Positions 11,119-25,406 of a DNA stretch of 64,000 nucleotides are shown here, one piece after another; positions within the stretch are counted from its first letter, which is position 1; every line of letters starts with the position of its first letter. The stretch covers positions 62,001-126,000 of the forward strand of contig NZ_SMAF01000008.1 of NCBI RefSeq assembly GCF_004343305.1, read 5' to 3'. The DNA is from Pseudofulvimonas gallinarii (GTDB lineage Bacteria; Pseudomonadota; Gammaproteobacteria; Xanthomonadales; UBA2363). A model generated the notes under the pieces. That model was not told where the DNA came from. It did no database searches and worked only from the letters and a program-made list of their open reading frames with translations. Position numbers and translations under genes: made by a program.

Positions 11119-11415
11119 ATGCCTGCCCTGCATGAACTGCCTGCCGAGGATTTCGAAGCCCTGGTCGACCAGACCGTGGTCCTTTCCTGGGACAGTGGCA
11201 GCCTCGACTGTCGCGTCGAAAGCGTCTGGCGCAGCCCCTATCCCACCGGCCGTGCGCTGCCGGGGTTTTCCGTCTTCCTGCGGGGTCCCGGCGACCGGCA
11301 ACTGCGCCAGGGCGTCTACACCCTGAGCCACGCCAGCCTGGGCGAGCTGGACCTGTTCCTCACGCCGATCGCCCTCGACGCCGAGGGCATGCGCTACGAG
11401 ATCGTCTTCAACTGA
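11119..11415 (+). CDS. DUF6916-type small protein
   Basis: A 98-residue protein with no signal peptide or membrane segment. The pattern is a short N-terminal helix (LPAEDFEALVDQTV), then beta strands with LPGFSVFLRGP, and an ending MRYEIVFN. The same layout ([11 protein letters not shown], then RRFQVVFN) occurs in the protein at 56890-57312. I place both in DUF6916, a family I associate with tail-collar cassettes; function unknown. It reads toward the adjacent operon and its last 8 bases overlap the end of the glycosyltransferase gene. Confidence 0.6.
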   Translation: MPALHELPAEDFEALVDQTVVLSWDSGSLDCRVESVWRSPYPTGRALPGFSVFLRGPGDRQLRQGVYTLSHASLGELDLFLTPIALDAEGMRYEIVFN

Positions 11416-12622
11416 GCGACGGTCGCGGCGCCATGCCGCGCAGCAACGCCCGGGCGCTCGTCTCCCATCGCAGGTCCGCGCTCAGGCATCGCCCCAGGGC
11501 GGCCTCCGCCTTCTGCCGGTACAGCTGCGGATCGTCGTGCAGGTGCCGCAGCAGCAAGCCGGCCGCGTCCACGTCCACCTGTCCCAGGCGCAGCGGCGAG
11601 TAGTCGCTTACTGCCGGCCGAACCGGCAGAAGCAGCGCGGCATCGCCCCACAATTCGCGCAGCGCTGGATGGGCGGGCAGCAACTGCGGCGCACCGGTCG
11701 CGGCATGCTCGAAACTGACCAGCCCGAATCCTTCGCCCAGGCTGGTGTTGAGCCCGACCGCGCAGGCGTTGTACAGGCGGTCGAGATCTTCGTCGGCGAT
11801 CGGTCCCGACTGCGGCGGCCACCACAGCACGCGGTCGGCGATTCCAAGGTTCCGGGCCTGCTCGCGCAGTGGCAGCACGAATTGCGGGAACGACCACGCC
11901 TGGTGCAGGCACAGGAAAACGTTGGCGGGCAGCCCGGCCGCGGCACGCGCGAACAGTTCAAGGCTGAGGTCGATGCGCTTGCGCGGATCCGGACGGCTGG
12001 CGTTGAGGACGACGAATGCCGGTTCCGGCAGGTCGAACAGCTGCTGCGCGCGCCGCATGCGGACATCGAGACCATGCCCGCACGCTGCCGGCTTGAACGC
12101 CGCCAGGTCGATGCCGTGCCCCGCCACTTCGACCGGGATGTCCAGATCGACCGCGGCCAGTGCACGCCGCAATTCGCCAACCGCATGTCGGGTGTAGGTG
12201 AACAGGCCCGCGAAACCGCGCAGCCCGGCAAGGATCGACGGATCGATGACGTCGCCGTCCAGCGGCATGTAGCCGTACAGCGGCGCGGACGGATCCACCG
12301 CCAGCAGTTCGCGCGGGTAGTGCTCCAGATACCAGGGATCGTTCAGCGCCAGCACAATGTCCGGGGCCAGCGACCGCCATGACTGGCGCGCGGCATAGGC
12401 ACCCATCATGTCGCCGCCATTGGGATTGGTCGGCAACAGGCGCACGCCCTCGGCCAGCCGCTGCGGATCACCCCGGTAGCCAACGCCCATCCAGGTGACG
12501 CGGTATCGCTGTGCCAGCCATGGCAGCAGTGCCTGCAGCACGCGGGTGAAACCGGTGCCCGGCCGGTACCAGCCGAACAGCAGCAGGTGCGGCCGATCGC
12601 GGACGGGTCGGTTGTGCTCCAT
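11408..12622 (-). CDS. Glycosyltransferase, GT4-like (group 1)
   Basis: A 404-residue cytoplasmic protein of GT-B type. The C-terminal half has the sugar-nucleotide domain: FVVLNASRPDPRKRIDLSLELF, then DRVLWWPP and GEGFGLVSFEHAATGAPQL, which is the E-x7-E-like donor site of GT4 enzymes. The N-terminal acceptor domain starts LLLFGWYRPGTGF. Donor and acceptor cannot be told. It is the last gene of the tail-collar operon, 27 bases after the preceding gene. It may glycosylate the collar proteins or a surface glycan they bind; that is inference. The ATG at 12622 is preferred to a GTG at 12631. Confidence 0.75.
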   Translation of the reverse strand: MEHNRPVRDRPHLLLFGWYRPGTGFTRVLQALLPWLAQRYRVTWMGVGYRGDPQRLAEGVRLLPTNPNGGDMMGAYAARQSWRSLAPDIVLALNDPWYLEHYPRELLAVDPSAPLYGYMPLDGDVIDPSILAGLRGFAGLFTYTRHAVGELRRALAAVDLDIPVEVAGHGIDLAAFKPAACGHGLDVRMRRAQQLFDLPEPAFVVLNASRPDPRKRIDLSLELFARAAAGLPANVFLCLHQAWSFPQFVLPLREQARNLGIADRVLWWPPQSGPIADEDLDRLYNACAVGLNTSLGEGFGLVSFEHAATGAPQLLPAHPALRELWGDAALLLPVRPAVSDYSPLRLGQVDVDAAGLLLRHLHDDPQLYRQKAEAALGRCLSADLRWETSARALLRGMAPRPSLS

Positions 12623-12649
12623 GCAAGGCACCGGCCCGTCCGGTCTCCC

Positions 12650-13180
12650 TCAGGCGTTGTCGATCTGGACCGGCGTGTACACCGTTTTGCCGCCGATGTT
12701 CATCGGCATCAGCTGCACGGTGAGGATGGGGCCGACCCCGGACAGGCCGACCTGGCTGGCTTCGAACCCGGGCTGGTTGGTATTGCCCAGGATGCCGACC
12801 AGGGCATAACCGAACGTGCCCAGCGAGCCGCAGTTGAACTGGAAGGCGATCTGCTCGATGCGACGCAGCTCGCGTCCGCCGCCGTTGACATCGAGGAACT
12901 GGAACAGGTCGCCTTGCGGCGGATTGTTAAGGCCGACGCCCAGGGTGGCCACGATCAGGAGGTAGTCCGGGGTGTTGAAGTTGCCGATGTCGGGTGCCTG
13001 TGACGGCGAGCCCTGCACCTGGTTGTACACCACCTGCAAGCTGCTGCGGTCGACCACCAGGATCCAGTACCCGCCCTTCTGGGACTGGGTGGTGACGTTG
13101 TTGCCGATCCCCACCTGGCCCCAGTAGTACTGGTTGTTGGGATTGGCGATGACTGAAAGCGGTACGGAGTTGTTGCTCAT
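12650..13180 (-). CDS. Unknown protein of the tail-collar operon
   Basis: A 176-residue soluble protein with no signal peptide. Notable strings are NNQYYWGQVGIGNN, GGYWILVVDRSSLQVVYN, a strand YLLIVATLGVG, and FGYALVGILGN. The alternation of 'own-property' strands and a late L-G-S-G-Y-A-L block faintly recalls interleukin-like (ILEI/PANDER) domains, but I do not claim that family. AAGGA precedes the ATG at 13180. It lies between the GNAT gene (111-base gap) and the glycosyltransferase (27-base gap) on the same strand. Confidence 0.55.
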   Translation of the reverse strand: MSNNSVPLSVIANPNNQYYWGQVGIGNNVTTQSQKGGYWILVVDRSSLQVVYNQVQGSPSQAPDIGNFNTPDYLLIVATLGVGLNNPPQGDLFQFLDVNGGGRELRRIEQIAFQFNCGSLGTFGYALVGILGNTNQPGFEASQVGLSGVGPILTVQLMPMNIGGKTVYTPVQIDNA

Positions 13181-13291
13181 GGGATTGTCCTTGAAAGTTG
13201 CCATTGCAACACCGCGCACGGGCGCGGACCAGGGAGGCGATGTCCGGTGCGACGCGCCGTCCAGCCGGCACGTCACCACGGGTTCCCGGTT

Positions 13292-13885
13292 TCAGCCGGA
13301 ACCGGTCGGGTCGGACGCGATCCCCGGGGGCGCGTCGCAACACATGAAGTGGTAGATCCCGCGCACCTCGCGCGTGACGAATCCCAGCCGCTGGTAAAGG
13401 CGCTGGGCCGGATTGAACGGTTCCACATGCAACGTCATGGGCAGCTTCAGCTGCCGGCTCCACGCCAGCAGGGCCGCCATCAGCCGTGTTCCCAACCCCT
13501 GTCCCCGCAACGCCGGCAGCAGGGTCACCTCCATCAGCCGGACCTCGTGTCGCGTGTGGTGCAGGTAGAGGCGGCCAACCGCGTCGCCCTCTCGCTCGAT
13601 CACCAGGAAGGCTGCCCCCGGATAATGCTGGCGGTACTGCTCGCGCTGTGCGGAAAACTGCTGCTGGATGAAGGCCTGCTTCAACTCCTCCGGCCAGTCC
13701 ACCTGCTGCAGCTCGGCCTCGCGCGTGGTCCTGTACAGGTCGCACAACCAGGGCACGTCCGCATCGGTCTCGGTGCGGTAAGTGATGCCTTCCGGAGCCG
13801 GAGGCCAGTACCCGGCCAGCAACGGCAGGTCTTCGCCCGCACCCTGGCCCGCACCACCTGCCGCTGTCGGATCCATGCCATCCAT
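13292..13885 (-). CDS. GNAT family N-acetyltransferase
   Basis: About 197 residues. The acetyl-CoA fold is seen as ITYRTETDADVPWLCDLYRTT (alpha1), AFLVIEREGDAVGRLYLH, VRLMEVTLLPALRGQGLGTRLMAALL (motif A, R/Q-x-x-G-x-G), and NPAQRLYQRLGFV (motif B). The substrate is unknown; the operon context suggests an amine on a partner protein or sugar. Start choice is uncertain: ATG at 13885 or 13876, or a TTG at 13915 overlapping the stop of the upstream collar gene as TTGA. Confidence 0.75.
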   Translation of the reverse strand: MDGMDPTAAGGAGQGAGEDLPLLAGYWPPAPEGITYRTETDADVPWLCDLYRTTREAELQQVDWPEELKQAFIQQQFSAQREQYRQHYPGAAFLVIEREGDAVGRLYLHHTRHEVRLMEVTLLPALRGQGLGTRLMAALLAWSRQLKLPMTLHVEPFNPAQRLYQRLGFVTREVRGIYHFMCCDAPPGIASDPTGSG

Positions 13886-13911
13886 CACAGCTTTGCCGGT
13901 CCGTTCCGTGT

Positions 13912-14430
13912 TCAAGAGCGCGGCGGGAACACGCCCTGCAGGGCGATGCAGAAGTAGAGGGTCAGATACGGCTGCATGTTGTTGTGCGGCAGGCTGCCGC
14001 CAGTGGGCACGAGCGCCTGAGTCGCCATGGGTGCCACCGCCGTGGGCGCGCCGTACATGCCCAGGCCGATTCCCGTCGCGAACATCTCGTCGACCGGCGA
14101 GGTCGAGTTGCCATCGCCCGCGGACACCACGACCGCGTGACTGTGGGCAGGGATCTCCGACTCGATCAGCGTGACCGTTTCCTGGCCGCCCTGTTCGCCC
14201 AGGTTGCGATAGGTCAGCCCCGGACCCTGTCCCCAGTGCATCGGAGCCCGTCCCTGCAGGTCCGGCAGGGCGAAGTTCGATTGGCCGTTGCCGCCGTAGG
14301 TCGTGCCGAGCAGGGAGAACAGTGCGGTGTTCTGCGCCAGCGGCATCAGCTGACCGTCACACCATGCCCAGCCGCGTGGGGCGAAGTTGAAGGGGAATAT
14401 CCGGATTTCGGCGACAAATGGATCAGCCAT
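13912..14430 (-). CDS. Phage tail-collar (Mdp-type) protein, copy 3
   Basis: A 172-residue protein of the tail-collar/microcystin-dependent protein family: FAPRGWAWCDGQL, then LFSLLGTTYGGNGQSNFALPDLQGR and the closing HNNMQPYLTLYFCIALQGVFP. The N-terminal collar fold is that of phage short tail-fibre tips; the middle third is variable (DEMFATGIGLGMYG). No signal peptide. An AGGAG box precedes the ATG. It is the third of three paralogues in a row; no other phage tail genes are nearby, so this is not a prophage remnant in the usual sense. Confidence 0.85.
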   Translation of the reverse strand: MADPFVAEIRIFPFNFAPRGWAWCDGQLMPLAQNTALFSLLGTTYGGNGQSNFALPDLQGRAPMHWGQGPGLTYRNLGEQGGQETVTLIESEIPAHSHAVVVSAGDGNSTSPVDEMFATGIGLGMYGAPTAVAPMATQALVPTGGSLPHNNMQPYLTLYFCIALQGVFPPRS

Positions 14431-14506
14431 GGGAAAGCTCCTGGAAACCGTCAGTGGAATGCCGCGCGCCTGGCGCTGCGGCGTGGATCGAGGGTCCGCC
14501 CATCAT

Positions 14507-15016
14507 TCATGTCGGCGACGGGAAGATGCCGAACAGCGAGATGATGAAGCTCACGCACAGGTAGGGCTGCATGTTCGTGTGCGGCTGACTGCCTCCAATC
14601 GGGCCGATCGTGGAAGGAACGAGGCTGGTCCGGGGATTGTCCTGGCCATACGGCGATATCGTCGCACCGGTGGCCTGTGCCGCGACCGCTCCTGCTGGCG
14701 ACGTGGCTGTCGCGGCTGCGGCCTGGGCCAGCAGCGTGTGCGTATGCGCCGGAATCTGGTTCGTCGTCAGGGTGATGCTCTCGGCACCGCCGGTCTCGGC
14801 CAGGATGAAACTGTTGCCCTGGTGGATGGGAATGCGGCCGCGCAGGTCGGGCAATGCGAAAGTACTCTGGCCATCGCCGCCGTAAGTCGTGCCGATGAGC
14901 TGGAACAGGGTCTCGTTCTCGGAAATCGCCAGCAGCTGGCCTTCGCAGAACATCCAGCCCGCGGGTGCGAAGTTGCCCCCGAACATCCGGATTTCGCCAA
15001 CGTAGGGTTGTGCCAT
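14507..15016 (-). CDS. Phage tail-collar (Mdp-type) protein, copy 2
   Basis: A 169-residue paralogue: EIRMFGGNFAPAGWMFCEGQLLAI, then LFQLIGTTYGGDGQSTFALPDLRGR, IPAHTHTLLA, and HTNMQPYLCVSFIISLFGIFP. The variable middle is Ala/Thr-rich. GAGGAG precedes the ATG. Only 15 bases separate it from the stop of copy 1, so the two are surely co-transcribed. The 76-base gap to copy 3 holds no clear terminator. Confidence 0.87.
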   Translation of the reverse strand: MAQPYVGEIRMFGGNFAPAGWMFCEGQLLAISENETLFQLIGTTYGGDGQSTFALPDLRGRIPIHQGNSFILAETGGAESITLTTNQIPAHTHTLLAQAAAATATSPAGAVAAQATGATISPYGQDNPRTSLVPSTIGPIGGSQPHTNMQPYLCVSFIISLFGIFPSPT

Positions 15017-15031
15017 GTCGGTGCTCCTCGG

Positions 15032-15538
15032 TCAGGTCGGCGAAGGGAAGATGCCCTGCAGGGCGATGGAGAAATTGAGGGTCAGGAACGGTTGCATGTT
15101 CAGGTGCGCCTGCGAGCCGCCCGTGGTGCCGATGGCGGCCGGCGACATGGGCTGGAGATTGGTCGGCGGACCATAGGCGTTTGAACCGGACGAAGCCGCG
15201 AGGCCCAGCGACGTGGTGGGCGTGTTCTCCGTCGCGGTGTCCTTGCTCGCCTGCACGACGTGTGCGTGCTGGGGAATTTCATTGATCGACAACGTATGCG
15301 CCTGCTCGCCACCCCGCTCGCCCAGTGTGTGGGCGGCACCGACGTGGATGGGCGTGCGGCCTCGCAGATCCGGCAGCGCGAAGTTCACCCGCCCATCACC
15401 ACCGAACGTCGTGCCGAGCAGTGAGAACAGCGCCTGGTTCTGGTTGATCGGCAGCAACTGTCCGTTGCACAGCGCCCATCCCCGGGGCGCGAAGTTGAAG
15501 CTGAACAAACGGACTTCGGAAAGGAATGGTTCGGCCAT
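15032..15538 (-). CDS. Phage tail-collar (Mdp-type) protein, copy 1
   Basis: A 168-residue paralogue and first gene of the cassette: EVRLFSFNFAPRGWALCNGQLLPI, LFSLLGTTFGGDGRVNFALPDLRGR, IPQHAHVVQA, and HLNMQPFLTLNFSIALQGIFP. AAGGAG lies 6 bases before the ATG at 15538. The middle segment differs from those of copies 2 and 3, as expected if each copy presents a different binding face. Export, if any, cannot rely on a classical signal peptide. Function in bacteria is unknown. Confidence 0.87.
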   Translation of the reverse strand: MAEPFLSEVRLFSFNFAPRGWALCNGQLLPINQNQALFSLLGTTFGGDGRVNFALPDLRGRTPIHVGAAHTLGERGGEQAHTLSINEIPQHAHVVQASKDTATENTPTTSLGLAASSGSNAYGPPTNLQPMSPAAIGTTGGSQAHLNMQPFLTLNFSIALQGIFPSPT

Positions 15539-15682
15539 GGCGTACTCCTTTTGGATCGCGTCGACGGAAGCCGCCGGGCCTGGACGTGTCAACGCGCCGG
15601 CGCGGCAGCCTGGTGTGTACGTCTGTTACTGCAAGCTTGTTGTCCCGATTCGCCTCCCCAAGGCATCACCTGTGCGGGCCTA

Positions 15683-15709
15683 CCCTGCCGGCGCTCGGCG
15701 CCGGCAGGG
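15683..15709 (-). terminator. Hairpin after the giant surface gene
   Basis: A perfect 12-bp stem (15683-15694 with 15698-15709) with a 3-base loop lies just beyond the stop of the giant gene and ahead of the tail-collar operon. There is no T-run. It probably separates the two transcription units. Confidence 0.6.
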
Positions 15710-18489
15710 ACTTGGGCTCACGGAAACAGGCAGTTGCTGAATCCGCTGGTGGCCGAGATCAACAGGGTTCCGTTTCCGCCCGGGTTCAGACCGTTGACGT
15801 AGGTCTCCACGCCTGGCGTGGCGCTGGCGGCCATGTTGACAATGCCGAAGGCGAACTGGTTTGGCACCGCGCCCTGCTTGCGCAGGCCGATGCCGTTGGT
15901 TCCACCGCTGCCGGCGGAGGTGTTGCCGCTGATGTCGAGGCAGACGGTATCGTTGCCGCCGTCCTGCGTATTGCCGGAATCAATACGGATGCCCGGCCGC
16001 ATGCCAGTCAACGGCGCGGCAACCGTGTTGTTCTGAACACGCGCATTGAGCCGGCCATTGGTATCCCGTGCAACCAGAAGGATGCCGTTGCCGTCGACCT
16101 GGCTGATGTTGTTGTTCCGCACCGTCACGGTCATCAGCGGCTGGTCTGTCTTGGCGTAACTGAAGCCAAGGCCACCACCGATACCCTGCGATCCAAAACT
16201 GTTGTTGGCAACAATGACGTTGTTCTCGATGACCGACGTCACGGTGACCTGTCCGAACGCCGAATTGCTGATGCCGGTGCCGGTGATGCGGGCGATCGGA
16301 TCGGCAAGCGTGCCGTTGTTGGAAATGTTGAAGTTACCCTGGCCGCGCCCGTTGACCAGGGCGATGATCGCTTCGGCACCCATCCGGTTGACCGGACTGG
16401 CGCCGGCGATCCGGTTGCCCGAGATGCGGATCACGTCGGTGGGATGCCCAGCCGTGCCGAAGACACCGACCGGGCCGGCGGCCGACGGATTGCCGCCCTG
16501 CGCCTGGATCCCGCCACCACCCGGGAAGTTAGTGATGACATTGGCGTTGATGTCGGCGCGGGTGACGCTGGCCGCCGTCGTCGCGGAGCCGTAGGCGATC
16601 AGGCTGATGCCCCAGCCGCTCGACTGGGCCGCCGACGTCGAACTGGTCAACTGGTTGTTGCTGATGTTGGCGTGGCTGACCGTGCCGTTGAAGTTGTACA
16701 GCTCGACGCCGAATCCGCTGGATGTCTGCAGCGTGTTGCCAGTGATCGTCACCACCCCATACAGGTTGCGCTCGGTACCGGAACTGGCCTCGTTGAAGCC
16801 GATGTTGGCCCGCCGCGGCAGCATGTCGGTGCCGGAACGGGCGATATGGCTGTTGGTGAGACTGAAGCCGTTGACTTCCGTGCCACCCACACCATGGCCG
16901 CGGGTATTGTCGATGAACATCCGGTCGATCGACGGTTCGGTCGTGGACCGCAGCCAGATGCCATGGGTGCCGGCATTCTGGATGGCGCCACCCGTACAGC
17001 TCGCCGCGCTCGAGCAGGTTCCGCCATTGCCGGTCACCATCAGCGAACCGAGGTTGCCGGTATTGTCCAGAATGATGCCGGCGGACGGCGAGTTGGTGGA
17101 GCTGATGCTTCGGAACGTCACGTCGGCTGCCGCAATGGTCGCATCGGTGAGGTTGAGGGCGACGCCCGCTGCCGCGGACAGCATGTTGGCGTTCGTTCCG
17201 GTGGTCACCGACACCGTGCCACTGTCGGCGTGGAAAGCCGCGCCCGTCAGGGTGGTGACGGCAAGGCCGCCATTGACGAAGTGCACGGCGGTGGCGGCGC
17301 TGTTTCCGGTCAGGCTGACGCCTGGATTGGAACCACTGCTGGAAACCGTCTTGTTCGCGCCACTGAACGTGTAGGTGCCGCCCGTGCGGCCGCTCACCCG
17401 GATGCCGGCATTGCCTGACCCGGTGCCGCAGTTGCCCGTGCAGGACAGGTTGCCCGACAGGCTGAGGGTCGCCGCCCCCGCACCGCTGATGTCGACGAGC
17501 GTGCCGGCAGCGGTCTTGACGATATCTCCCGAGTAGGTAAGCGTCGCCGAGCCGGTACTGAACGAGAACGCGGTCCCGCTGGCGCCACTGAGGGTGCCGC
17601 CGCCCAGGCTGGCAGCACCACCCACCGCCGAGAGGGCGATATTGGAGGCTCCGCTGGTCGAGGTGACCTGGTCGAAGGCATCGAATCCGGCGAGCTGTGC
17701 CAGGGTGCCGTTGGAAAGGTTCAATGCCTGGCCAGCGCCGCTGATCCGGTTCTCACCCAGCGTCAGTGTTCCGAACCCGCTTCCGTTCAATGCAGCGCCG
17801 GTGGTGGCGCCGATCTCGATGGCGCGGATGGTGTTGTTGCTGGCCAGGGTGAAGGCGTGGGTAGCGGCCGCGGTCGTCGTGATGAGCGGCCTGCTGCCAC
17901 CCAGGGCCGGACGCGCCACGCTCAACGCCGGCGGGCTGATCCCGAACAGCGTGTCGAAACTGCTGGCGGTGGCCGCCTGGCCGATGACCTGCTGCCCGTT
18001 GAGCAGGGTGACGCCCCCGGTATGGCTGCCGCTGTACAGGAAGATGCGGCTGTTGATGCCGGCGGCCGACGCCGCCTGGGCCAGCGTCTGGAAGGGACGG
18101 GACAGCGTGCCGGTACCACCGGCCGGTGCACTCGGATCGACGAACCAGATGGCCGTACCCGACAGCGCGACAGTGACGGTGGCGGTGGTGCAGGCCGACG
18201 GCAACGGCACGCCGGAGTCACACACCTGGACATCGAAACTGTCGGTGGTGGCGGTATTGCTGGCCGGCGGATCGTAGGTCCAGGCGCCGTCGCTGTCGAC
18301 CGTGTAGCGACCCCCTGCCGTACTCGCGGCGCCGGTGACCGCCGTCAGCGAGAACGGCTGCGCGCCCGGCCCGTCGACATCCGTCACGTCGGCCAGCAGG
18401 TTGTACGCATGCGCTGCCGGCACGACGATGCCGATATTGCGATGCACCGGTACGTTGGCCGGCACCACGACCACGGGCGGATCGTTGAC

Positions 18490-21400
18490 GGCTTCCACGG
18501 TGATGGTGAACGACGCCGGTGCCGAGGTATCGACGCCGCCATTGGCGGTGCCCCCGTTGTCCACCAGGGTCACCGTGACGTTGGCCACGCCGAACGCGTT
18601 CGGCGCCGGAATGAAGCTGAGGTTGCCGGTCGCTGGACTGATCGCCGGCGGCGCGGAGAACAGCGTCGGATTGTCATTGCCGACATTGAAGTCCAGCACC
18701 TGCGTACCGCCATCGCCGTCGTCCATGCCCGTGGCCCAGGCCTGGTTCTGCGCGCCGGCGTCCTCCTGCACGGTGACGTTGCCACCCGGGGTGAAGCTGG
18801 GCGGATCGTTGACGCCGTTCACGGTGATCGTGAAGGTGCGGCTGAAACTGTCGACGCCACCATTGGCGGTACCGCCGTCATCACGCAAGGTCGCCTTCAG
18901 CGTCGCCGTGCCGAAGGCATTGGCGGCGGCGGCATAGGTCAAGGTGCCGGTGGACGCGTCGATCGCCGGCGCCGTCGTGAAGCCCAGCGTCGAGTCGATG
19001 GCGTCGATGCTGACGTCGAAGCCGAGCAAGGCCTGCGAGGACTCGTTGGCCGGACCGGCGGACAGGTTGCTGGCAAAAGCCACAATCGTCTGGGCACCGG
19101 CGTCCTCCAGCACGGCCGGCGCGCTGGCAGGCATGTCGAAGCCGGGCGCGTCGTTGACCGCTTCGGCGGTGATGGTGAAGGTCACCGGCGCGGACGTGTC
19201 GACGCCCCCATTCGCCGTGCCCGCATCATCGCGCAACACCAGCGTGATGTCGGCGCTGCCGAAGGCGTCGGCGGTCAGCGTGAAGCTGAGGTTGCCGGTG
19301 GCGGCGTCCACCGCCGGCGGCGTTGCGAACAGCGCGGCATTGGTGTTCGACTGGACGATGAACTCAAGACCCTGGACCTCGTCGGCGTCTCCGTCGTCAA
19401 TGCCGGTGGCCCAGGCCTGGCTGTAGGGCGCGGCGTCCTCGTAGACCGTCACGTCGCTGCCCGGCGTGAACACCGGTGCGGAGTTCACGCCTTCGACGGT
19501 GATCGTGAAACTCTGCACCGCGGAGGTGTCGACGCCACCGTTTGCGGTACCGCCATCGTCGCCAAGCTGCACGTTGACCGTCGCGGTACCCGACGTGTCG
19601 GCCTGCGGCGTGTAGGTCAGCGTGCCGGTCGTGGCATCGATGGCCGGCGCCGAGGAAAAAGCCAGCGTGCCGGTGGTGCCGGCGAGCGACACCGAGAAAG
19701 TCAATGCCTGGCCTGACTCGTTCGCCGGGCCGGCGACGATGTCCTGGGCAAAACCAGCCACCGTCTGCGCACCGCTGTTTTCCAGTGCCACAGGCGCCTG
19801 GGACGGCACGGTGAAGCTGGGCGCGTCGTTGACCGGGGTGACGGAGATCTGCAGCGTTGCCGATGGCGAGGTGTCGTTTCCGCCATTGGCGTTGCCGCCA
19901 TCATCCTGCAACGCAATCGTGATGGTGGCGTTGCCGAAGGCGTCCGCTGCCGGCGTGAAGCTCAACGTGCCGTCCGCAGCCACGGACGGCCCGGCGGAGA
20001 ACAGCGACGGATTGGTGTTGTCCTGGATGACGAAGGTCAGCGCCTGCGTGCCATCGTCGCCATCGCCGATGCCGGTGGCCCAGGCGGTGACGGTCTGCGC
20101 ACCGGCATCTTCCAGCACCGCCTGGTCGCTTCCTGGCACGAACTGCGGGGGTGAGTTGACACCGGCCACCGCCACCGTCGCCACGGCCGGGGCCGACACG
20201 CCACCGCCGTCGTCCTCGACGAGGAAGGCGATCTGGCGCGGCGTCTCGTCCGGGTTGTTGGACACATTGGAATAGGTCGCGGTGCGCAACACGGCCTGGT
20301 AGTCGGCGACGCTGGCATTGCCGGTGAGGGTGAGCACGCCACCGGCGTAGGCGGCGCTGAGGCCACTTCCACCGACGTTGACCGCCAGCACCTCGTCGCT
20401 GCCGTCAGGCGCACTCGCCAGTGTCAACGTGGCTTCAACCAGCACGTTCGAATCGATGTCGGTCACGGTCATGGCCGCGGCATCGACGATCGGGACGGGC
20501 ACGCCGCCCTCGATGAAGCTGGCGTCGTAGCCGGTGCCGGCTGCCGGCCCGTTGAGATCCACCGCCGGCGGATCATTCACCGGCGTCACGGTAAGGGTGA
20601 AGGTCTCCGGCGCCGACAGGTCGACGCCGCCGTTGGCCGTACCGCCGTTGTCGCGGACGCGCACGGTGAACTGCGAGGTACCGTGCTGGTCCGCCGCCGC
20701 CGTGTAGGTCAGCGTGCCATCGGCCGCCACCGCGGGCGCCACCGCGAACAGCGACGGGTTGGTCACGTTGGCGACCTGGTATTCGGCCACGGCCTGGGCG
20801 GCTTCGTTCGGACCCGGATCGAACGTGGTCACCCATCCAGCCACCGTCTGCGCACCGGCATCCTCGGCGGAGGCAGGCGGGTTGGCGGCCGTGAAGGACG
20901 GCATGTCGTTGACTGCCGTGACGGTGATGGTCAGCACCTGAGCCGGCGAGGTGTCGACGCCGCCGTCGGCCGTCCCGCCATCGTCCTGCGCCACGACGCT
21001 GAAAGTCGCGGTGCCCCAGGCGTTGGTGTCCGCGGAATAGCTCAGCACGCCGCTGCTCGAAATCGCCGGTACCGCCGCAAAGCTCAGGGTCGGATCACTG
21101 GACACCGGCGTCAGGATGAAAGTCACGGCCTGCGATGACTCGTCGGCCGGACCGGCGCTGATCGCCGTTGCGACGCTCACCGACTGCGCACCGGCATCCT
21201 CGAGGCCCGGCGCCGGATCCTGCAGGGTGAACGACGGTGATCGTGAGCACGTGCGGCGCCGACGTGTCGGTGCCGCCATTGGCGGTACCACCGTCATCCT
21301 GCAACACCACGGTGACCTGCGCGCTGCCGTTGGCGTCGACCGCCGGGGTGAAGGTCAGCGTGCCGGTACCGGCATCGATGGCGGGGGCGGTGGCGAACAG

Positions 21401-22543
21401 CGCCGGATTGCTGTTGGCCTGCACGAGGAAGCCCAGCACCTGCGTGCCGCCATCGTTGTCGTCCATGCCGGTTGCCCAGTTGGCAACCGACTGCGCGCCG
21501 GCGTCTTCCAGCACGTTGACATCCGGACCCGGCGTGAAGACCGGTGCGTTGTTGACCGCTTCCACGTCGATGGTGAAAGTCTGCGGCGTCGACAGGTCGA
21601 CGCCTCCATCGCTGGTACCACCGTCATCGCGCACGCGCACGGTGAACTGGGACGTGCCGCGCGCGCCGGCAGCCGGCGTGTACCGCAACGTGCCGCTGTC
21701 GTCGACCGTCGGCGCGGCACTGAACAGCGCGGGATTGCTGATGGCCGACACCTGGTATTCGGCGACGGCCTGGCTGGATTCGTTGGCCGGACCGGCGGTG
21801 AACGTCGCCCAGCCAGTGACTTCGGCCGGCCCGCTGTCCTGGAAGACCGGCGGTGGATTGGCGGCGGTGAACGAAGGCGCATCGTTCACCGGCGTCACGA
21901 GGATCGTGAATGTATGGGGCGCGGAAGTATCGACGCCGCCATTCGCGGTGCCGCCATCATCGCTGAGGGTGATGGTGATGTCGGCGCTGCCATTGGCATC
22001 GTCGGCGGTCGTGAACGTCAGCGTGCCGCTGGCGTCGAGCGCAGGCGCGGCGCTGAACAGGGCCGGGTTGCTGTTCGCCTGCACGGTGAAGGTCAGCGTC
22101 TGCCCGCCGCCGTCGCCGTCGTCGATCGCGGTCGCCCAGTTGGCGATGGACTGCGCACCGGCGTCTTCGAGCACGACCGGATCGGCGCCAGGCGTGAAGC
22201 CGGGTGCGTCGTTCACGTCATCGACCGTGACCATGATCGACTGCGGCGCCGATTCGTCGACGCCACCGTTGGCGGTGCCGCCGCTGTCGCGCATCACGAC
22301 GGTCAACGTCGCCGAACCGAGCATGCCCGGGGCCGGCGTCGCGGTCAGCACGCCTGCCGGGGAAATCGTCGGCGTACCCGAAAACAGGGTGGAATTGTCG
22401 TTGCCGGTGATTTCAAACGAAAACGACTGGCCGGACTCGTCGGCGGGCCCTGCTGACAGCGCCGTGGCGACCACCGCAGTTTGCGGGCCAGCATCCTCGT
22501 AGAGGGTCGCGTTCTGCGGCGAGAACGACGGCGCGTCGTTGAC
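18490..22543 (-). repeat. Tandem cadherin-like repeat region
   Basis: About twelve diverged tandem units of roughly 340 bases within the giant gene, most encoding an EDAGAQ strand, a DDGGTANGGVDTSAP turn and a VNDAPSFT-type linker. One unit, near 20160-20580, is a different Ig-like type (FIEGGVPVPIVD, NVSNNPDETPRQIAFLVEDDGGG). Units are similar enough at DNA level to favour slippage or mis-assembly. Confidence 0.8.
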
Positions 22544-23059
22544 CGGCTGGATGTCGAGGCTGACCAGCGCGGCGGGCGAGGTCAGATCGCCATCGCTGAC
22601 GGTGAAGGTGAAGGCGTCCGTGCCATTGCTGTCGGCCGCCGGCGTGTAGGTCACTTCCGCGGTCGTCGGCGACGTCTGGATGATCGCTCCCAGCGTGCCG
22701 GAAGCCGGCGGCGAAGCGATGGCGAAGGAGATGGCCGGCGACTCGTTGTCGCTGCCGCTGAGCGTCACCACCAGCGGCGTGTCTTCCAGGCCGCTGGCGG
22801 CAACAGGATTGGCGACCGGCGCATTGTTCTGCACATCGCGCACATCGACGCGGAAGAACAGCCGGCCATTCTCGATGGCGACGAACGCGGCGGTCAGGTC
22901 GATGGCGCTCTGCCCCGAGGTGCTGTCGCCCGCAGGATCCGTTGCCTGCGGCGACTGGCTGCCCCAGTCGCCGACGTTGCCGTCGAGCGCGAAATTGGCC
23001 GCGATCACCAGTCCGCTGCCGAGGACCAGCAGCGCCAGGCTGCCGTTGCGCAGCATCGG

Positions 23060-23137
23060 CCGCAGGCGGCGGCTGCGCAGGATCAGGATGGAGGCGAGGA
23101 TGAGGACCGCAAGCCCCGCCCAGCCGAGGCCGGGTAC
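23060..23137 (-). other. IPTL-CTERM-like segment in an internal position
   Basis: Codes for VPGLGWAGLAVLILAS then an Arg cluster (RSRRLR). This is the motif, hydrophobic helix and basic stop of an IPTL-CTERM sorting tail, but some 2,400 residues of protein follow it. A second hydrophobic helix (SLALLVLGSGLVIAA) comes 5 residues after the Arg cluster. Confidence 0.5.
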
Positions 23138-23802
23138 GGGCGCGGCCGGGGCGCCGACCACGATCGGACCACCACCGGCTCCGCTGCCGATCAGGTCGCT
23201 GCCCGCCGCGCTTTCCGCGGCGAAATAGACGCGGAACGGCGCCGGGTAGGCCGAGCCGGTGAGCTGCTCGATGGTGGCGCCGAGTTCGACGACGTCCGCA
23301 CCTCCCAGACCGTTGTCGAGGCCGATGGGGTACGGGCCGCCGACACCGGTCGGTGGGCCGAAACTGCCGCCGGCGCAGGTTTCCACCGTGAGGCTGGAAA
23401 CCTGGAAGACGCCGCTGCCAGACAGGGCGCTGAGACGGCGCTCGACGCCGGTGACGACGTTTCCGCCACCCAGATCGACGGTGCAACCGGACCCTGACTG
23501 GCGATCGACGTCGATCAGCACGCTGTAGGCGTATAATCCTGTGCCATCACTGGCGCGGCACACAGCGTCACGGCGCCCAGCAGCACGCTACGCAGCATTC
23601 CCTTCAACATCGTTGTCCCCTATCGCCCGCTCACCGGGCCACTGTTGCCACAGGATGCGCTGGAAGCGCGGTTGTCCCGCCTGTCCGAAAGGATCGCGAC
23701 CAGGATCGGAGCCGGGCGTCCCGCTGTCCCCCCGAACAGCGGGACGCCCCGCGCCGACATTCTCCGGGTATCCATCCCCGACGGCTACGCAACCTTGGAT
23801 GC

Positions 23803-23831
23803 CTTATACGCGAATCCGTCCTGCAATCCAA
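23803..23831 (-). promoter_or_regulatory. Promoter of the giant surface gene
   Basis: Read on the minus strand: -35-like TTGGAT (23831-23826), 17-base spacer, -10-like TATAAG (23808-23803). Transcription would begin near 23796 and give a leader of about 185 bases before the ATG at 23610. The CRP-type palindrome lies immediately upstream of the -35. Confidence 0.5.
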
Positions 23832-23836
23832 TTTTT

Positions 23837-23852
23837 TGTGATCCATGTCACA
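23837..23852. promoter_or_regulatory. CRP/Clp-type binding site
   Basis: TGTGATCCATGTCACA is a perfect match to TGTGA-N6-TCACA, the consensus of CRP, Vfr and the c-di-GMP-responsive Clp of xanthomonads. The inverted repeat extends to 9 bp (TTTTTGTGA at 23833-23841, TCACAAAAA at 23848-23856). It lies between divergent genes: 227 bases from the giant gene start and 136 bases before the membrane glycosyltransferase ATG. The rest of 23611-23987 holds no gene. Confidence 0.65.
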
Positions 23853-23987
23853 AAAAGCAAGGATCTGCTCCAATACCCGTCCCCAAATCATGTCATCGGG
23901 ACATCGGCGGGACACAGGGCGCCAGGGCCGCCGGCGACATTTCCGGATGACCTACACTCGCTGCCCAGCGCACCCACCGATGCAAAC

Positions 23988-25406
23988 ATGCCCGACCATC
24001 CGACCCGGCCGAAGCCGTACGTCCTGAATTTCGCAGCGGCCTACCTGCTGTTGTCCGGGCTGCTGCTGGCGCTGTACTGGTTTCCCGAGGCCAAGCAGCT
24101 GGCTGGCGACGAGCACTACTACCATCATACGGCGCTGGCGCTGCTGGCCGGCGGCGACTGGTTCGACGGCAACCTGATCTGGCCGCCCCTGCAGGCGCTG
24201 ATCCTGGCCGGGATCTACGGCCTGGCGGGACCCTCCGTGCTGGCCGTGCAACTGCTGCAGCTGCTCATGCTGGCCGGAGGCGGCCTGTTGCTGGCCGACA
24301 TCTGGCGCCGCCTGGGCGGCAGCCGGGAAGCCGCCGCCTGGGCGGCGGCCCTGCTGTGCATCAATCCGCTGACGGTCGGCTTCGCGACCTACCTGTGGCC
24401 GGAGATCCCGCACCTGGTGCTGTGCCTGCTGCTGGCCTGGTGCCTGCTGCGCAGCCGCGAGGCCGGTACGCCCGGCGTGTGCTGGGCGGCCGGCGCCGGC
24501 GCCGCGCTTGGGCTGTGTCTGCTCGCAAAGAGCCTGCTCACCGGCTTCTGGCCGCTGCTCCTGCTGCCGCTGTGGCAGCGCGGGCGCCGCAACGGAAACC
24601 TGCTGCGGATCGTCGCGTTCCTCGCCGCCACCCTACTGGTGACGGCGCCGGCGTTGTATCGCGGCATGCAGGTGACCGGCAAGCCGCAGATCGCCGACTC
24701 TTCGTGGTTCAACCTGTGGGTCGGCCTGGGTGATCGCTGGCGCAACGACTTCGTGTTCGACGAGACCGGCCAGCGCATGCACGAATACCTGACGCACAGC
24801 CCGGATCCGCGCGCGCGCAACGCCTTCGCCCGCGAGCAGGCGGAAGCGATCGTCGCCGGACAAGGGCTGGTCGGCACCTTCACGGCGCAGCTGGGCAAGC
24901 AGTATTTCCGCCTCTTCAGTGCCCGGCACTTCGTCGTGTCGCAACTGCATGGCCGCATCTGCGACGGTTACACCAGCCGATACGGCAGCGAAAGTTTCGT
25001 CGTGAACCGCGGCGGCGCCTGGTTGATGCAGGCCTGGCATGTCGCGCTGCTTGCCATGGCGGCGTTCGGGCTGGCGGCCTGGCGGCAATGGCGACAACCC
25101 TGGCTGTGGCTGGCGGCCGCGTTCGTGGCTTACCAGATGGCACTGTTCTTCGGCCTGCACGTCAAGTCGCGCTTCCTCGTGCCCATGCTGCCACTCCTGT
25201 GCCTGTTCGCCGGACACTGGCTGGCGATGCCGCGTCGCGAACGCCGACCGCGCGCAGCCGGCTGGCTGCTGGCGGGCCTGCTCGCTTTCCTGGCCCTGGC
25301 CGGCCCCTGGCTGGACGATGCCTGCGATCAGGCCGGGCGCAGCGGCAGCGAAGGACTGGCGGCCGGCGCGACCGGCATCCGCAACGCCTGCGCGACATCG
25401 GTGTAA
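23988..25406 (+). CDS. GT-C type membrane glycosyltransferase (ArnT/PMT-like)
   Basis: A 472-residue polytopic membrane protein with about ten hydrophobic helices. The first loop has AGDEHYYHHTALALL, matching the acidic D-E loop that coordinates the lipid-linked sugar in GT-C enzymes, and the next loop has WPPLQALI. Such enzymes move sugar from a polyprenyl phosphate donor to lipid or protein on the outer face of the inner membrane. Acceptor unknown. The ATG at 23988 lacks a clear Shine-Dalgarno. Its 3' end runs 79 bases into the opposite-strand ankyrin gene. Context suggests surface glycosylation. Confidence 0.7.
   Translation: MPDHPTRPKPYVLNFAAAYLLLSGLLLALYWFPEAKQLAGDEHYYHHTALALLAGGDWFDGNLIWPPLQALILAGIYGLAGPSVLAVQLLQLLMLAGGGLLLADIWRRLGGSREAAAWAAALLCINPLTVGFATYLWPEIPHLVLCLLLAWCLLRSREAGTPGVCWAAGAGAALGLCLLAKSLLTGFWPLLLLPLWQRGRRNGNLLRIVAFLAATLLVTAPALYRGMQVTGKPQIADSSWFNLWVGLGDRWRNDFVFDETGQRMHEYLTHSPDPRARNAFAREQAEAIVAGQGLVGTFTAQLGKQYFRLFSARHFVVSQLHGRICDGYTSRYGSESFVVNRGGAWLMQAWHVALLAMAAFGLAAWRQWRQPWLWLAAAFVAYQMALFFGLHVKSRFLVPMLPLLCLFAGHWLAMPRRERRPRAAGWLLAGLLAFLALAGPWLDDACDQAGRSGSEGLAAGATGIRNACATSV

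Follow-up and report, generated by a model that had tools for sequence, protein, structure and literature searches.

The 377-nt, AT-rich spacer between a giant surface-protein gene and a divergently oriented membrane glycosyltransferase gene of Pseudofulvimonas gallinarii contains a TGTGA-N6-TCACA palindrome, which raises the question of which protein would read it, which of the flanking genes would respond and to what signal. We analyzed the locus within the window (the whole stretch of DNA studied, 64,000 nucleotides or 64 kb), in the genome as a whole (G000), in two congeners (G001 and G002) and in further genomes. A sequence-only reading had described a perfect core, an inverted repeat with 9-bp arms and a spacer shared with a divergent membrane glycosyltransferase. 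On re-reading, the core matched letter for letter, both arms were found, and a gene of the PMT_2 family does lie opposite the giant gene (Table 1).

Table 1. Features of the divergent spacer and its surroundings (window positions)
Feature	Position	Strand	Remarks
Core TGTGATCCATGTCACA	23837-23852		TGTGA-N6-TCACA, both arms exact; candidate Clp/CRP operator
Palindrome TTTTTGTGA-TCCATG-TCACAAAAA	23833-23856	.	9-bp arms
TTGGAT (23831-23826) -17- TATAAG (23808-23803)	23803..23831	-	8/12 matches, toward giant gene
TACCCG	23874..23879	+	TA at the spacing giving -41.5 for the glycosyltransferase; weak
Divergent membrane glycosyltransferase	23988..25406	+	PMT_2 family, 472 aa
Leader hairpin	23714..23749	-	arms 23714-23727 and 23736-23749; 14 bp, perfect, longer in the fold
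Giant gene, signal-peptide start	23515..23610	-	ATG at 23610 (signal peptide by eye); stop after 31 codons
Giant gene, second frame	21098..23563	-	N-terminal domain, two hydrophobic stretches (by eye), Big_9/cadherin-like repeats
Giant gene, third frame	15721..21297	-	Big_9 repeats and C-terminal region
Cassette	11119..23610	DUF6916 +; others -	DUF6916; GT4 glycosyltransferase, 184-aa protein, GNAT, three PF07484 collar proteins, giant gene

We favour, with moderate confidence, the view that the palindrome serves as operator for the single regulator of Clp/CRP type in this bacterium and that from the divergent spacer it controls at least one of the flanking genes. The analysis yielded an exact site, a gene for a regulator whose DNA-reading helix is conserved, and near-consensus sites that in this genus lie mostly between genes; binding, target and sign of regulation are predictions from these sequences. 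In the proposed mechanism, a Clp dimer would bind TGTGA-N6-TCACA between the surface-protein and glycosyltransferase genes and, once bound, would regulate at least one of them, within a regulon that comprises many secreted and surface functions. The favoured target would be the promoter of the surface-protein cassette, possibly together with the glycosyltransferase, and a likely Clp-controlled surface-protein locus would thereby be added outside the studied xanthomonads. Two other readings of the letters were set aside. An FNR-type operator (TTGAT-N4-ATCAA) fits the site worse by eye than does the CRP motif, despite the presence of two FNR-like proteins, and no terminator-like site is found within 23560-24060.

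Rarity and genomic placement of the motif

The exact motif occurs three times in the 3.45-Mb genome and its reversed pattern not at all. The Markov-1 expectation is 0.03 exact copies per window and about 1.7 per genome, and the motif appeared in one of 5000 dinucleotide shuffles of the spacer. Symmetry of the arms alone is less special, since the window holds two gap-6 repeats with 9-bp arms. There is no overall excess of sites, and near matches are depleted overall: 19 sites with at most one mismatch were seen in this genome against ~58 expected (Markov-1), and the window, with up to two mismatches allowed, has 2 sites where 16 are expected. Relative to the reversed pattern, sites with at most one mismatch numbered 19 versus 9 in this genome, and 26 versus 7 and 20 versus 3 in G001 and G002, respectively. 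These figures bear on the possibility that the palindrome arose by chance in an AT-rich spacer and has no regulatory role. The genome-wide expectation speaks for it, as does the position of one of the three exact copies, which lies inside an RpfF-like coding sequence (L003), whereas the shuffled spacers speak against it.

A chance origin is also opposed by the placement of sites across the genus. Among the sites with at most one mismatch in the three genomes, 54 of 65 were intergenic, compared with 40 of the 258 positions that served as controls within these loci, a bias that AT-richness and the avoidance of TGA in coding frames explain in part. By genome, the intergenic sites amounted to 15/19 (G000), 21/26 and 18/20 (congeners) and the intergenic control positions to 12/76, 17/103 and 11/79, the counts of the two congeners not being independent because many of their sites are common by descent. 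Intergenic status was assigned by crude gene calling with the window as training set; over the whole window, this caller overlooks the glycosyltransferase and the giant gene's second frame. As the near-consensus sites are mostly intergenic, and several precede genes for secreted proteins, polysaccharide export or c-di-GMP functions, the motif resembles a working operator.

In this genome, a subtilase gene is associated with two near-consensus sites 62 bp apart, one intergenic (L037) and the other scored as coding in the preceding gene (L038); altogether 4 of the 19 sites with at most one mismatch were scored as coding. Other near-consensus sites neighbour a DcaP porin gene (L045) and two GGDEF genes, encoding PAS-GGDEF-EAL and PAS-GGDEF proteins (L041, L042). 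A one-mismatch Clp-type site ~165 nt upstream of csrA (L044:1133-1516) hints at a Clp-CsrA link in this species. The second exact site (L002) precedes a putative secreted protein (secretion judged by eye) without a Pfam match. Sites that fit less well are L035, before a 3-hydroxyacyl-CoA dehydrogenase gene, and L040 and L106, for which no downstream gene was called. By eye, the gene after the second exact site (L002:1543-1700) is apparently frame-shifted, the break falling just after the signal peptide. The RpfF-like protein is encoded beside part of a hybrid histidine kinase (L003:46-2319).

Genes for polysaccharide export follow exact sites in the relatives (L029 and L020 were scanned; L028 is the G002 counterpart of L029), and genes behind some near-consensus sites there were judged by eye to be pilin-like (L126, L099) or RpfF-like (L110). 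Polysaccharide export as a target common to this genome and its relatives was discarded, G000 having no PF02563 match. Matching the site loci of this genome to those of the congeners gave five rows, from which two shared sites were counted. One is present in all three genomes (L036, L121, L119) beside a single conserved gene (87% identity, SmpB-like by eye), and the other, in G000 and G001, lies in the DcaP-side spacer (L045, L125). L003 and L110 have an RpfF-like gene in common with the sites at different places and were not counted as shared, nor was the pair L040/L023, with a 39% match.

Conservation of the site beside homologous genes

Homologues of the PMT_2 glycosyltransferase are present in 5 of the 40 other genomes, and those of the N-terminal part of the giant protein in 12 of the 40, the congeners not among them. 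In the congeners, where the giant gene is absent, the spacers between rho and the glycosyltransferase gene contain no operator (best matches with 4 and 5 mismatches), and no site was found in the 400 nt upstream of six glycosyltransferase homologues (best match 4 or 5 mismatches). The scan upstream of giant-gene homologues covered 11 of the 16 other matches, namely those with a locus: the best match had 2 mismatches in one (G013) and 3 in seven, nothing within 3 mismatches was found in the remaining three, and no conserved footprint emerged from the 11 loci. With no site beside the homologues scanned beyond the two-mismatch match in G013, the operator is seen only in this species within the sample. 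This is a further point in favour of a chance palindrome, which we nevertheless regard as quite unlikely in view of the shuffled spacers and the genus-wide intergenic placement.

The regulator and its ligand

Four proteins of this genome match the PF00027 profile. One of them, at C38, is a Clp/CRP orthologue: its best PDB match is 3iwz (E-value = 4e-81), which we take to be Xanthomonas Clp, its score of 303 bits lies above the NCBIfam CRP cut-off of 266, and its DNA-reading helix, VGCSREMVGR, is intact. The Clp orthologue that the sequence-only reading called for is thus present, and the objection that the genome might have no crp/clp-type gene fails. The remaining three comprise two FNR-like proteins (L005, L007), whose scores fall short of the NCBIfam cut-off for Fnr, and one protein with a GGDEF motif by eye.

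The same reading took Clp of xanthomonads to be turned off by c-di-GMP and expected the surface-protein and glycosylation genes here to respond to cAMP or c-di-GMP. Under c-di-GMP control, Clp would be released from DNA by this ligand, which would switch the surface genes as in Xanthomonas. According to the excerpted text of PMC10333796, E99 is a signature of c-di-GMP-binding Clp. The excerpts of PMC6637768 give D70, R154, R166 and D170 as c-di-GMP sites of Clp, and for Clpxoo name D70 and E99 as key residues, E99 being also among those that bind the promoter. The C38 Clp aligns to 3iwz without gaps. Clp orthologues were found in 34 of the 41 genomes, and 30 of them were read for residues. Position 99 is Glu in 25 of these 30, Ser in G000, G006 and G025, and Ala in G001 and G002. 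At position 166, Gln is confined to G000, G001, G002 and G006; every other orthologue read has Arg or Lys, the 25 that bear E99 dividing into 20 with Arg and 5 with Lys. R154 and D170 are kept in G000 Clp, while the residue corresponding to D70 is uninformative, being Glu in G000 as well as in 16 of the 25 E99-bearing orthologues.

With both Glu99 and Arg166 replaced in the Clp of G000, G001 and G002, c-di-GMP is unlikely to act as an 'off' switch here, and this part of the sequence-only reading is not supported. Release of Clp by c-di-GMP would agree with the presence of the RpfF-like protein and the adjoining hybrid-kinase fragment, with the near-consensus sites at two GGDEF genes and with the retention of R154 and D170. 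However, the RpfF-like protein scores 410 bits, under the NCBIfam equivalog cut-off of 550, and the replaced residues are those tied to c-di-GMP binding in the excerpts of PMC6637768 (both) and PMC10333796 (E99), so that we consider this explanation highly improbable. Control by c-di-GMP does not follow from a Clp operator by itself, since the regulator of this genus is without the residues tied to this ligand. Judging by these positions, the signal of the regulator is probably not c-di-GMP, and the protein would be either of the cAMP type or ligand-free.

Following the numbering of E. coli CRP for the residues of the cAMP pocket, the pattern E..RS..TS is present in G000 Clp as GELG, QRS and ATSRK; the pocket Ser of G000 is Ala in the congeners. 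The E. coli CRP consensus core matches TGTGA-N6-TCACA, and the system described here is like that of E. coli both in this core and in the CRP-like pocket residues (GELG, RS, TS) of the regulator. Unlike in E. coli, no dedicated adenylate cyclase was identified in the search for the class I enzyme, which gave no PF01295 match in the genome. The sole PF00211 protein belongs to TIGR04510, the 'peptide modification system cyclase' family. The E..RS..TS pattern also occurs in a table in the excerpted part of PMC10333796.

We tentatively suggest, with somewhat less than even confidence, that a family without the Clp c-di-GMP switch (E99 and R166 replaced in all three genomes) has kept a TGTGA-N6-TCACA regulon whose members have surface, polysaccharide and c-di-GMP functions. 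If true, this would be a natural experiment in which the ligand of a global regulator was changed or dropped and the operators were not rewired. Purified proteins from sister families would allow a change of Clp ligand within the order to be tested directly. The tree is compatible both with loss of E99 here and with the residue never having been gained: the E99 label needs two changes, and the host family joins G006 weakly (47/88).

Promoter spacing and the choice of target

The sequence-only reading had also placed a sigma70-like promoter for the giant gene next to the palindrome. The letters are present but their quality is not above chance, given that pairs with at least 8/12 matches arose in 231 of 300 shuffled spacers, and in 80 of the 300 when the -10 element also had to match at 5/6 or better. 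The palindrome is overlapped on the plus strand by pairs of equal score, GTCACA-16-TCCAAT and a shifted version of it, and a stricter promoter scan of the spacer found none. The predicted +1 at ~23796 puts the centre of the site (23844.5) at -48.5, in agreement with the value near -48 given earlier. Among the E. coli CRP placements in the excerpts of PMC2859248 (class I, -61.5; class II, -41.5; aer, -49.5), this spacing nears only that of the sigma28-dependent aer promoter. In the same excerpts, CRP activates a sigma28 promoter from -49.5, and from near -50 activates sigma70 promoters very weakly.

Alternatively, the palindrome could be mainly a class II site of the glycosyltransferase, with +1 near 23886 and an incidental position before the giant gene. 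On that side the TACCCG hexamer has its TA exactly at -41.5, whereas the giant-gene side has no TA at this spacing. When the genus's intergenic sites were oriented (25 sites), TAnnnT hexamers were most frequent at offsets 18-21, corresponding to site centres of -38.5 to -41.5; 5 of the 25 lie there, the largest count among the 120 four-base windows, for which the mean is 0.5. The -48.5 of the giant side is outside this range, and the bin that begins with it is empty. The class II window was, however, chosen after seeing the results of a weighted -10 score, in which -20.5 and -21.5 ranked ahead of -41.5. By analogy with CBS II of engXCA, this cluster could be regarded as class II-like. On the other hand, TACCCG is without the final T, and a TA in any of four positions is a common accident. 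Moreover, a rival -10-like hexamer, TACACT at 23953-23958 (by eye), lies closer to the start codon of the glycosyltransferase, and the homologues of this gene have no site. We regard a primary role at the glycosyltransferase as rather unlikely. The promoter assignment is tentative, and neither the giant-side -48.5 nor the glycosyltransferase-side -41.5 spacing is decisive.

Besides the E. coli sites, the closest parallels to the proposed operator are in Xanthomonas campestris. In the excerpts of PMC6430473 and PMC3528676, the Clp sites of engXCA (CBS I and CBS II) and xagA likewise have TGTGA-type half-sites, a regulator of the CRP family and secreted or surface-related targets, with use as activator or repressor; xagA exemplifies repression (PMC3528676). 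The footprint of engXCA CBS II extends from -53 to -32 and overlaps the -35 element (PMC6430473, excerpt), compared with the predicted centre at -48.5 here. The regulators differ as well, E99 and R166 being missing from the Clp here.

The giant surface gene and its cassette

The giant gene has a signal-peptide start (by eye) and Big_9/cadherin-like repeats, but it is not a single open frame, being split over three. In homologues, a start resembling a signal peptide is joined in one frame to the N-terminal domain, and open frames reach 3489 aa. Since these frames read through, the giant gene of G000 is broken as sequenced. The breaks (23515-23610 and ~21100-21300) may reflect sequencing error, decay or something else. 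The first falls just after the signal peptide, as does the apparent break in the secreted-protein gene at L002.

A mid-protein hydrophobic stretch followed by Arg residues lies in the giant protein's N-terminal part (22916-23161, minus strand). The same segment gives a weak match to the NCBIfam family NF033207, midcut-by-XrtH, below its cut-off (18.6 of 45 bits, E-value = 0.0016), and from these features the protein may possibly be cut by an exosortase. Neither XrtH nor midcut was found in connection with the cassette among the literature matches listed. The presumed leader of the giant gene has a folding z of -3.59. Its strong hairpin was considered as a repeat element, a reading that was rejected, the only second match in the genome being its own reverse complement, which makes it single-copy.

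The cassette of the giant gene and three tail-collar proteins occurs in several families of the order. In this genome it separates rho from the glycosyltransferase gene; in G001 and G002 these two genes are direct neighbours. A PF07484-like collar trio follows the giant-gene homologue in six of seven chosen flanks (L138, L140-L144) and is absent from the G036 flank (L139). Within ~9 kb, the six flanks with the trio also contain GNAT (five), DUF6916 (four), GT4 (two) and the 184-aa protein (two).
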